From the NCBI GenBank assembly GCA_025360815.1, contig JANYBL010000097.1:1-64000 (forward strand): 64,000 nucleotides of DNA, given 5' to 3'. Shown piece after piece: positions 26,278 to 28,779 of the stretch. Under the pieces are notes generated by a model. The model was not told the origin of the DNA. It saw nothing but the letters and a program-made list of their open reading frames with translations, and ran no database searches. Position 1 is the first letter of the stretch. Each line of letters begins with the position of its first letter. Position numbers and translations under genes: made by a program. This stretch comes from Burkholderiales bacterium. GTDB lineage: Bacteria; Pseudomonadota; Gammaproteobacteria; Burkholderiales; Usitatibacteraceae.

Positions 26278-26691
26278 TTACACCAACGCTAAACGCGCGG
26301 CTTCAAAGCTGGCCGACGGCGTCGAAATAAGTGGCGATCCAATCGCCGCGACGATGCAGCCGACCGCGCCAAATAATGCCCCGAACGCCGCACCCAGCAT
26401 GGTGTTTGGCGGACCACCCGCTCTGAGCCAGATGGCAAAACACGCGCCACCGATGAGCGCGGGACCAGCTCCAAAGAGGTACGCGAACGCGATGGGGAAT
26501 AAGGCCCAAAGATAGGGCAGCCCGCCAATGAGCGGTCCTACAAACACGGCTCTGCCCACAATTTTCCAAAAGCCTAGTTCGTTTGATGGCCTGCTCGCCG
26601 CCATGATTTTTTGGTCAAATCTGGTCGGCACAAATTGTGGCGATTCAAGATGATTGCTCAATTCTGTGCGGGGTTGGAGTGTCGTGTTCAT
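26278..26691 (-). CDS. Small multi-pass membrane protein, probably truncated by a nonsense codon
   Basis: The 137-residue product has a polar N-terminal 50 residues and then three hydrophobic segments (AVFVGPLIGGLPYLWALFPI, then FGAGPALIGGACFAIWL, then MLGAAFGALFGAVGCIVAAI). The ATG at 26691 is preferred over an upstream start at 26748 because GAGGAG precedes it at the right distance. No family recognised. It stops at TAA 26278, beyond which the frame continues with coding character. An 8-bp tandem repeat lies 75-130 bases upstream. Confidence 0.6.
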   Translation of the reverse strand: MNTTLQPRTELSNHLESPQFVPTRFDQKIMAASRPSNELGFWKIVGRAVFVGPLIGGLPYLWALFPIAFAYLFGAGPALIGGACFAIWLRAGGPPNTMLGAAFGALFGAVGCIVAAIGSPLISTPSASFEAARLALV

Positions 26692-26765
26692 ACCATTCTC
26701 CTCATGCTTCGTCAGGTACAGCGTTGTAAGTTTTGCGTTGTCTAGCAACCAATGTACGGTTTAAT

Positions 26766-26821
26766 CTTGCTCACTTGCTCACTTGCTCACTTGCTCACTT
26801 GCTCACTTGCTCACTTGCTCA
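26766..26821. repeat. Seven tandem copies of an 8-bp unit
   Basis: The unit CTTGCTCA is repeated seven times without error over 56 bp in the 261-bp gap between two genes of the GbsR-associated operon. Perfect short tandem repeats like this slip during replication, so copy number probably varies between strains. A unit of 8 bp is not a multiple of 3. It lies upstream of, not inside, the nearest start codon. The remainder of the gap (26824-26952) has a weak GACCGC hairpin at 26906-26924 and no gene. Confidence 0.9.
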
Positions 26822-26952
26822 CTTGATGACGCGATGATGGCGCGCCGTTGGCAAGTGGGCGCGAGCCAGCGCCGAGCTCCTTCGTTGCTATGGCGCAACG
26901 GCCTAGACCGCTTTCGGGGCGGTCGATAGGGTGGCATTCGTCGCAGCATTGG

Positions 26953-27288: not shown

Positions 27289-27897
27289 TTAATGGTTGGT
27301 GGTGCTAAACGATGTCGCACAATTTTTTCGATCCACCGCGCAGACTTGGCTTTGTGCATATGCCACTTTCGCCAGCGCTGTTTGTGTCGTGAGTTGGTCG
27401 GCACGCGCTTTGGCGCGCTTGGAAAATATTTCCAGCAACCGGTGCAAGCCAATTTTGGACATGCGATAGCGGTTGCGCACGATCCACGGATACAGTCGTG
27501 CCGCATAGGGTTTGATTAATCGGTGCGCCAAGATGCTGCTGACAACGCCCAGATCGGCAGCCGCGTAGCAGGCCACAAACACATCCACCCCGCGCAGCCA
27601 TCGCCCCGCTGCATCGCGGGCGTGGATCATATTCATCATGGTTTCGCGGCTGGCTGGCAAGGCGCTGTCGTCAAAATCGACTGGGCTGCAATCAATTAAA
27701 TTGAGCATCGGCGCGCTATTTTGTTGAATGGCGCGAATCACATCGCGCGCGACGAAATTTTGCATTTCGCCGCTGCAAAGGCGGCATGAACCATCAAAAT
27801 AGACGGTGAGCGGGTAGGTGATCGCGACCTGGTTGCCGAGGCTGTTGGTCTCTTGCGGATTGGGCAAGGCATGCGTTGGCGTTTTTACGGTTGTCAT
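27289..27897 (-). CDS. DCC (DUF393) thiol-disulfide oxidoreductase-like protein
   Basis: Product of about 202 residues. The family signature DxxCxxC is seen as YFDGSCRLCSGEM near residue 35, and a matching GVDVFVACYAAAD segment and WIVRNRYRMSKIG end follow as in DUF393 proteins. The cysteines suggest redox activity; substrates are unknown for most members. The C-terminal 40 residues extend past the usual domain. ATG 27897 is taken; GTG 27903 has better spacing to the AAGGA ribosome binding site. It is the first gene downstream of the second palindromic operator. Confidence 0.8.
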   Translation of the reverse strand: MTTVKTPTHALPNPQETNSLGNQVAITYPLTVYFDGSCRLCSGEMQNFVARDVIRAIQQNSAPMLNLIDCSPVDFDDSALPASRETMMNMIHARDAAGRWLRGVDVFVACYAAADLGVVSSILAHRLIKPYAARLYPWIVRNRYRMSKIGLHRLLEIFSKRAKARADQLTTQTALAKVAYAQSQVCAVDRKNCATSFSTTNH

Positions 27898-27976
27898 CTT
27901 CACACAGGTTCCTTTCACTGCGAAATTTCAACGGCGCTTCAACACCATTTCAACTTCAATTGTTTTTTGTTTCTTT

Positions 27977-27998
27977 AGTTTCAGTAAATAATGAAATA
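27977..27998. promoter_or_regulatory. Second copy of the GbsR-associated palindrome
   Basis: TTTCAGT, spacer AAATA, then ATGAAATA matches the palindrome before the regulator gene with three mismatches over 21 positions. It is 80 bases upstream of the DCC start in an AT-rich stretch. The likely function is regulator binding at the operon promoter. The interval 28003-28200 otherwise shows nothing I can support. Confidence 0.55.
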
Positions 27999-28200
27999 AA
28001 AAGTTAAAAATTTTTCGCTTGTTTCTACTGCGGTACTGTTAAAGCCAACTTCAACCTCAGCTTCCACCCCGGTACCAAACCCTCACCAGAACAACCGAAA
28101 ACCGACAACACCCGAATTACGCCGAACACCTCGCCCGGCGCGGAGTTTGACGGATTGAGCCAACGGCAGCATTCAGCTTGCATCCGACAAACCTGTTCTG

Positions 28201-28734
28201 TTAACTTTCCGACTTGCTGCGCACAAACTGCTGCACCTTCGCGCCCATCTTAATCACTTTCATCATCGTCTCGGGCTCCAGGCGAATCATCTCTGATGCC
28301 CATGATGAAAGCGCTTCCATTAATGCCAACGTCTCCTTAATCCGCAGCTGCGCGGCTTTATCCTCAGAGGCAATATCGCCGCTTTTCAAACAATCGCGCA
28401 ATACCTCGATGGTGGGATCAAACTCGCGAGACTTGCGCTCCCGCACGACAGTGCGAAAAAGCTCCCACACATCGGTGGTCGTCTCGTAGTGATCGCGCCG
28501 ATCACCCATCAGCGGTATCGAGCGGATGAGGTTCCAATTCGAGAGTTCTTTCAAACTCATGCTCACGTTTGACCGCGCCACGCCAAGCGTTTCGGTGATT
28601 TCATCGGCATTCATGGGGTGCCCAGAAATGAACAGCAACGCGTGGATTTGCGCCACGGTGCGGTTAACGCCCCAAGTGGTGCCCATTTCGCCCCAGTGGA
28701 GCACGAATTTTTTGGCGACGGGTTTGAGTTCCAT
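28201..28734 (-). CDS. GbsR/MarR-family transcriptional regulator
   Basis: Winged helix-turn-helix regulator of 177 residues. Seen: the GbsR-type opening MGTTWGVNRTVAQIHALLFI, the recognition region EITETLGVARSNVSMSLKEL, then the wing with LIRSIPLMGDRRDHYETT, and a helical C-terminal half. Relatives control osmoprotectant or membrane-stress genes and respond to small molecules such as choline; the ligand here is unknown. A perfect palindrome lies 24 bases upstream of its start and a similar one before the DCC operon downstream, so autoregulation and control of that operon are inferred. Confidence 0.88.
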   Translation of the reverse strand: MELKPVAKKFVLHWGEMGTTWGVNRTVAQIHALLFISGHPMNADEITETLGVARSNVSMSLKELSNWNLIRSIPLMGDRRDHYETTTDVWELFRTVVRERKSREFDPTIEVLRDCLKSGDIASEDKAAQLRIKETLALMEALSSWASEMIRLEPETMMKVIKMGAKVQQFVRSKSES

Positions 28735-28757
28735 ATCAATAATTTACGCCTTCCAGT

Positions 28758-28779
28758 TATTTCAGTCAATACTGAAATA
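28758..28779. promoter_or_regulatory. Perfect palindrome upstream of the GbsR-type gene, probable operator
   Basis: Arms TATTTCAGT and ACTGAAATA are exact inverse complements around the 4-base centre CAAT. Its position, 24 bases before the regulator start in the divergent gap to uvrD, fits an operator overlapping a promoter. A close copy is at 27977-27998. Confidence 0.7.

Follow-up and report, generated by a model that had tools for sequence, protein, structure and literature searches.

Two matching palindromes beside a regulator gene

The 64,000-nt stretch of Burkholderiales DNA analysed here (the window) has a palindrome in front of a gene for a GbsR-type regulator and a near copy of it behind that gene, ahead of a gene for a DCC1-like thiol-disulfide oxidoreductase. 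Which protein, if any, reads the two sites, and which genes would it control? The comparisons below indicate that the palindromes are very probably operators of the adjacent regulator, a GbsR-type repressor of a subfamily that is not linked to cydA and that would repress both its own gene and the DCC operon.

The earlier note had described a perfect 9+4+9 palindrome and a three-change copy, and both are present where it placed them (Table 1): TATTTCAGTCAATACTGAAATA has no mismatch and AGTTTCAGTAAATAATGAAATA has three, one of which falls within the core. At up to three mismatches the 22-mer has two matches in the 64-kb window against a mean of 0.01 in shuffled sequence, and no shuffle reached two, so chance is excluded as the source of the pair. 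Operator 1 lies between the divergent starts of the regulator gene and uvrD, with 23 nt between it and the regulator ATG, and operator 2 is separated by 73 or 79 nt from the likely DCC start (GTG 27903 or ATG 27897). The ORF caller’s GTG, at 27918, stands ahead of a Shine-Dalgarno-like AAAGGA at 27915-27910.

Many unrelated genomic copies would have told against an operator, as the earlier note pointed out, but few exist: at up to three mismatches the 3.74-Mb genome has three sites, the two palindromes and one within a 536-aa open frame. The looser core TTTCWGT-N4-ACWGAAA, with one mismatch allowed, occurs nine times, and its reversed control pattern not at all. Three of the nine sites are the two palindromes and the operator of a second GbsR-type gene (on contig C72). 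Of the remaining six, four are in ORFs and two are intergenic. Three coding-frame sites (in groEL-like, TonB-receptor-like and ubiE-like frames, named by eye) were considered as a wider regulon and set aside as chance. The remaining coding site, a TTTCAG-type palindrome with one mismatch (L033, about 1501-1518; G000 C54:25035-25052), is at an ORF end, ~100 bp before a CtaA (COX15) gene, making a target among oxidase assembly genes possible. The intergenic pair (L032 and L031, each about 1501-1518; G000 C42:9656-9673 and C4:12178-12195) comprises two one-mismatch motifs, one of which precedes an AhpC/TSA-redoxin gene by 75-92 bp and the other an HPPD-type ORF by 23-40 bp. As a wider regulon, the sites before the CtaA, AhpC/TSA-redoxin and HPPD-type genes are leads only.

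Table 1. Sites and genes of the regulator locus, in window coordinates.
Feature	Positions	Strand	Remarks
NAD-dependent epimerase/SDR protein, 290 aa	25265..26137	-	PF01370; last gene of presumed operon
Small hydrophobic protein	26278..26691	-	ORF 26278-26748 (156 aa), likely ATG 26691; no Pfam family
Small hydrophobic protein, 111 aa	26953..27288	-	Next gene of presumed operon; no Pfam family above cut-off
DCC1-like thiol-disulfide oxidoreductase	27289..27918	-	PF04134, E=1.4e-14; likely true start 27903 or 27897
Third half-site, weak	27970..27975	-	AAGAAA, 1 mismatch; past operator 2
Operator 2 (putative)	27977..27998	.	Imperfect copy, core 27979-27996; between regulator and DCC gene
GbsR-type (MarR superfamily) regulator, 177 aa	28201..28734	-	Recognition helix 54-66, Met59
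Predicted -10 box TAAATT	28741..28746	-	17-nt spacer; 6 nt before ATG
Third half-site	28751..28756	-	CTGGAA, 1 mismatch to CNGAAA; 3 bp past core of operator 1
Operator 1 (putative)	28758..28779	.	Perfect palindrome, core 28760-28777; 5' of regulator; over predicted -35 box
Predicted -35 box TTGACT	28764..28769	-	In operator 1; promoter scan; conserved TTGA centre

The regulator and its subfamily

The regulator has a MarR-like winged helix at its N-terminus (PF12802, 37.9 bits, cut-off 27). Its structure model (mean pLDDT 93) has helices at 43-50 and 54-66 followed by two strands, which places 54-66 as the recognition helix. Homology to Mj223 (PDB 1ku9) extends over both domains by profile and by Foldseek, and this identifies the protein as GbsR-type: among PDB entries, Mj223 ranks best by profile (profile A1, E=4.9e-21, profile positions 9-151) and first by Foldseek E-value (1.6e-9; 20% identity). 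Bcav_2135 (PDB 5jbr) is second in both searches, with higher TM-scores (0.66-0.68 of the query) and 26-28% identity. We know of no operators for Mj223 or Bcav_2135. The protein does not belong to the osmoprotectant group (GbsR/OpuAR/CudC), scoring 46.5 bits with the NCBIfam CudC equivalog against a cut-off of 218, and no osmoprotectant synthesis or uptake genes stand next to it; the nearest genes are DCC, SDR and uvrD. Nor does it adjoin cydAB as the CydE/CioR group does, DCC/SDR genes standing there instead.

Relatives were gathered in two sets. The first comprises 61 genomes (the window’s own and 60 relatives), with 26 homologues in 21 genomes, the window’s own included. The wider set adds to these the best 80 of 582 named relatives together with matches from 369 class-level and 399 order-level genomes, giving 228 rows and 227 distinct regulators, 149 of type A and 78 of type B. 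The newest 101 loci contributed 94 rows, seven having been dropped as already-present proteins (L196, L208 and L213, which are duplicate loci, among them); a further batch of loci that duplicated others in the set was left out, and L181 has no residue call. Typing was done partly by residue 59 (defined below) in the 134 older rows, and by HWGE or HFGE in the newer ones. The tree, which covers 133 rows (L075 and the 94 newest rows are outside it), separates an A clade of 106 rows from a B clade of 27, both forks at 100/100; its midpoint root is for drawing only and the tree program flags long branches. Its groups agree with the typing of the older rows (106 plus L075 in A, 27 in B). The window’s regulator falls in the A clade and the cydA-linked rows in B, setting it apart from the presumed CydE/CioR clade. 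Among B regulators, 72 of 78 stand before a cydA match, and B is here presumed to be the CydE/CioR type.

The sites accompany the regulator gene

Within the 61 genomes, TTTCWGT-N4-ACWGAAA with at most two mismatches is found upstream of all 26 regulators, as against 0.3% of trials with shuffled 160-bp upstream stretches. The exact motif has 27 copies in these genomes, 23 of them within 1.5 kb of a GbsR-type gene and four away from one (in G030, G040, G042 and G046), while the reversed control has four copies in all. In the wider set, TTTCNG-N6-CNGAAA with at most one mismatch is upstream of 147/149 A and 65/78 B regulators (shuffles about 1%); six of the 227 (L092, L180, L183, L240, L264 and L292) have no site at two mismatches or fewer. 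The subfamilies differ in a second copy, which follows the regulator stop codon by no more than 350 bp in 102/149 A and 0/78 B loci, with shuffles again at about 1%. In some A clusters the second site is more distant: in L043 it precedes the SDR-DoxX ORF, in L044 a saccharopine-dehydrogenase-like ORF, and in L041 a second ORF within the DCC cluster. In eight A loci, mostly of Lysobacteraceae (L083, L086, L091, L126, L133, L134, L140 and L153), the regulator diverges from an SDR or SDR-DoxX gene, and the operator is at -77 to -122 in the intergenic region between the two.

Many sites are accompanied by a third half-site, CNGAAA with at most one mismatch, 3 bp on. It is found at 58 of 101 TTGA-centred A upstream sites (0-11 of 101 at other offsets), and at the same offset in 26/46 of the other A upstream class, 22/65 B sites and 48/102 second operators, where other offsets give at most 11.

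One recognition-helix residue covaries with the half-site

Residue 59, the position after RSNVS in the recognition helix, varies together with base 5 of the half-site, a base that the scoring pattern left free. Across the 227 regulators, those with Met, Ile, Leu or Val at this position have A at base 5 in 150 half-sites, T in 3 and G in 1, and those with Thr or Asn have A in 20, T in 262 and C in 4. The A clade is mostly Thr/Asn with TTTCTG and the cydA-linked clade Met/Ile with TTTCAG; within subfamily A alone, the A:T ratio is 8:2 for a hydrophobic residue against 20:262 for Thr/Asn. Because the rows are related and independent switches are few, Fisher p-values overstate this code and are not to be read as probabilities, and its weight lies on the independent switches. 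On the tree, starred branches force three changes of the Met label, at the A/B split, in the window’s lineage (L004-L006) and in L143, an Azoarcus MAG. A is the base found in each of the two A-type Met lineages, and all 8 second-operator half-sites of L004-L006 and L143 carry it. The exceptions are 20 of the 282 A/T half-sites of Thr/Asn regulators, which have A, L006 (Met), with one T half-site, L207 (Val), with A/T, and L257 (Ile), whose best site has two mismatches and reads T/G. These sequence comparisons suggest that residue 59 predicts base 5, Met going with A and Thr/Asn with T.

Three cydA-linked regulators of one family (L224, L230 and L244) have RSNVGI in place of RSNVSM and TTCCAG-N6-CTGGAA sites. 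We do not claim a second switch, Gly58-Ile59 with TTCCAG...CTGGAA, as these are three genomes of one family and L257 has RSNVGI without such a site.

The position of operator 1 between divergent starts could also suit an unrelated regulator, such as one acting on uvrD. This is very unlikely: uvrD is the neighbour only in L040 of 16 loci compared, yet operators still accompany the regulators, and the base-residue covariation is with the adjacent regulator.

The second paralog

The window’s genome has a second GbsR-type gene, on C72, which adjoins CydA and CydB genes (checked with Pfam). The two palindromes might bind mainly this cydA-linked protein, instead of or besides the adjacent regulator, and the DCC operon would then be tied to cytochrome bd control. 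Both paralogs here have Met59 and TTTCAG half-sites, as in one sister genome (G007), and the C72 operator is one mismatch away from the core. Elsewhere the paralogs mostly differ. Of the 28 genomes that have both types, 25 combine an A regulator with Thr/Asn at residue 59 and a B regulator with Met/Ile there, and the operators differ likewise; the other three have Met in both (the window’s genome and G007) or Val and Ile (G664). Among those 25 genomes, 21 have a T/T operator for A and four a mixed one (G284, G460, G546 and G657); for B, 22 have A/A, and G284, G522 and G606 lack a good site. This pattern implies that sites track the adjacent gene. The site centres also differ, being often TNTTGA in A and TAATTA in B. 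We therefore consider it improbable that the second paralog is the main reader of the two sites, and retain the adjacent regulator in that role.

Met59 with TTTCAG in both paralogs nevertheless leads us to predict cross-talk with the cytochrome bd repressor. It is possible, and we propose this only tentatively, that residue 59 is the main specificity switch separating the paralogs, and that the A regulator, together with its two operators, switched to the CydE reading in the window’s lineage, so that control of cytochrome bd and of the DCC/SDR operon merged.

A predicted promoter over operator 1

The promoter scan of the region found two promoters against a shuffle mean of 1.7, a weak result alone; the comparison with relatives carries more. 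The operator centre coincides with the TTGA of a -35 box in 82 A promoters, with 30-40 nt from there to the start codon. Of these 82 comparable promoters, 74 have a TANNNT at 16-18 nt spacing; at six shifted offsets the count is 0-5 of 82. Of 79 TTGAC-centred A sites, 65 lie at -42 to -45 from the expected ATG. Another 46 A operators are without a TTGA centre; a -35/-10 pair that reaches a score of 9 of 12 or more, and whose -10 lies at the operator edge, is present in 30 of them, an uncalibrated count that takes the best of several placements. The predicted -10 box ends so close to the ATG that the regulator mRNA is predicted, on sequence grounds, to be leaderless and to start at its ATG. A strict Shine-Dalgarno motif is found in 0/82 A promoters, but this says little alone because it is also missing in most B regulators (71/77); the argument is the fixed geometry.

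The scan of the window found no promoter for operator 2. Upstream of the second operator, 78 of 98 Thr/Asn A loci have a T-run, at least six T in 30 bp; in every third locus, inspected by eye, no consistent -10 was seen.

The near-fixed distance to the ATG bears on one more reading, that the sites are hairpins or mobile repeats of no regulatory meaning. Repeats and terminators are possible sources of perfect inverted repeats, but this geometry, an asymmetrical centre that fits a -35 box, the mere three copies in the genome and the footprint of the homologue CydE (PMC6096048) leave the structural reading barely credible.

The DCC/SDR cluster

Around A regulators, DCC matches are found at no fewer than 81 of 149 loci, SDR-DoxX matches at 103 and DUF2269 matches at 55; these are lower bounds from long and short flanks mixed, and in the newer rows one SDR gene may match two queries. 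By the same kind of count, the 111-aa protein has matches near 15/149 A regulators, for instance between DCC and SDR-DoxX in L076, L113 and L145, and the second small hydrophobic protein in only 2 A loci, leaving its place in the presumed operon uncertain. With Pfam, neither a DoxX match in the SDR protein nor DUF2269 was found in the presumed operon, both being common in the clusters of relatives. The extent of the operon is uncertain because of internal gaps of about 200-260 and 140 bp. The earlier note’s claim of an operon under the regulator is supported by comparison for the DCC gene, and the extent beyond that gene is read from gene order. The DCC and SDR families are the sole ground for our guess of a role in a membrane or thiol redox response.

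At 26766-26825, in the gap that separates the genes of the two small membrane proteins, are 7.5 perfect copies of the 8-mer CTTGCTCA. This tract, if variable in length, could affect expression of the genes downstream.

Proposed mechanism and comparison with known systems

The earlier note’s proposal of an operator pair serving a GbsR-type regulator and a DCC operon is supported by a motif that follows the regulator gene, a conserved two-site layout and the covariation of base and residue. In the mechanism that we propose, a repressor dimer would insert the recognition helix of each subunit into the TTTCAG half-sites, with residue 59 reading base 5. Binding at operator 1 would cover the repressor gene’s own -35 box and result in autorepression of a promoter that would start a leaderless mRNA at the ATG, binding at operator 2 would repress an operon of DCC, small membrane protein(s) and SDR, and a signal would release the repressor. 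Binding by the regulator, repression, the leaderless start and the operon extent are all things that we infer. An operator, a two-site layout and a candidate operon are thus now proposed for a second large GbsR-type subfamily. The one-residue rule for operator choice makes paralog insulation, and its loss in the window’s lineage, testable, and the promoter geometry predicts that many such repressors are made from leaderless mRNAs with the -35 box as part of the operator.

GbsR-type regulators are described as widespread and poorly characterised (PMC6207618, PMC11837568). A family survey, in the text available from it, lists 34 of 179 genes as cyd-linked and groups others as ‘unknown’ (PMC6207618). 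Among the matches listed in the open-licence PubMed Central literature, none appears to describe the A subfamily or its operator use; the operator type itself is already known for one homologue, CydE.

GbsR and OpuAR of Bacillus share with the window’s regulator the family name, the winged helix with a helical C-terminal domain and the Mj223 template (PMC6207618). They differ in their osmoprotectant genes and inducers (PMC6207618), and genes of that kind are absent beside the window’s regulator; in GbsR proper, an aromatic cage near the linker is the inducer site (PMC6207618). CioR of Chromobacterium violaceum directly represses cioRAB, with autorepression and binding both reported (PMC11837568). 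Its target is cytochrome bd (cioAB) (PMC11837568), unlike the DCC/SDR surroundings here; A-type regulators are present in other Chromobacterium species (L132, L138 and L146).

The closest parallel is CydE of Alishewanella sp. WH16-1, a GbsR-type repressor of cydAB that represses its own operon (PMC6096048). Its DNase I footprint, in the parts of the report available, covers two sites, TATTTCAGAAATTTCTGAAAGTTCA (site 1) and GGGATGCGCATATGCAAAT (PMC6096048). Site 1 has the TTTCAG-N6-CTGAAA core, as does operator 1, so that a homologous regulator footprinted on the same kind of sequence also backs the operator reading (PMC6096048). The second CydE site is unlike the palindrome, and no counterpart of it was seen here. 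The window’s regulator differs from CydE in its separate clade, its place beside DCC/SDR genes, a second operator after the gene and a TTGA-centred operator. The system would share its fold and core operator with the GbsR/CydE kind, and differ from it in clade, target genes and layout.
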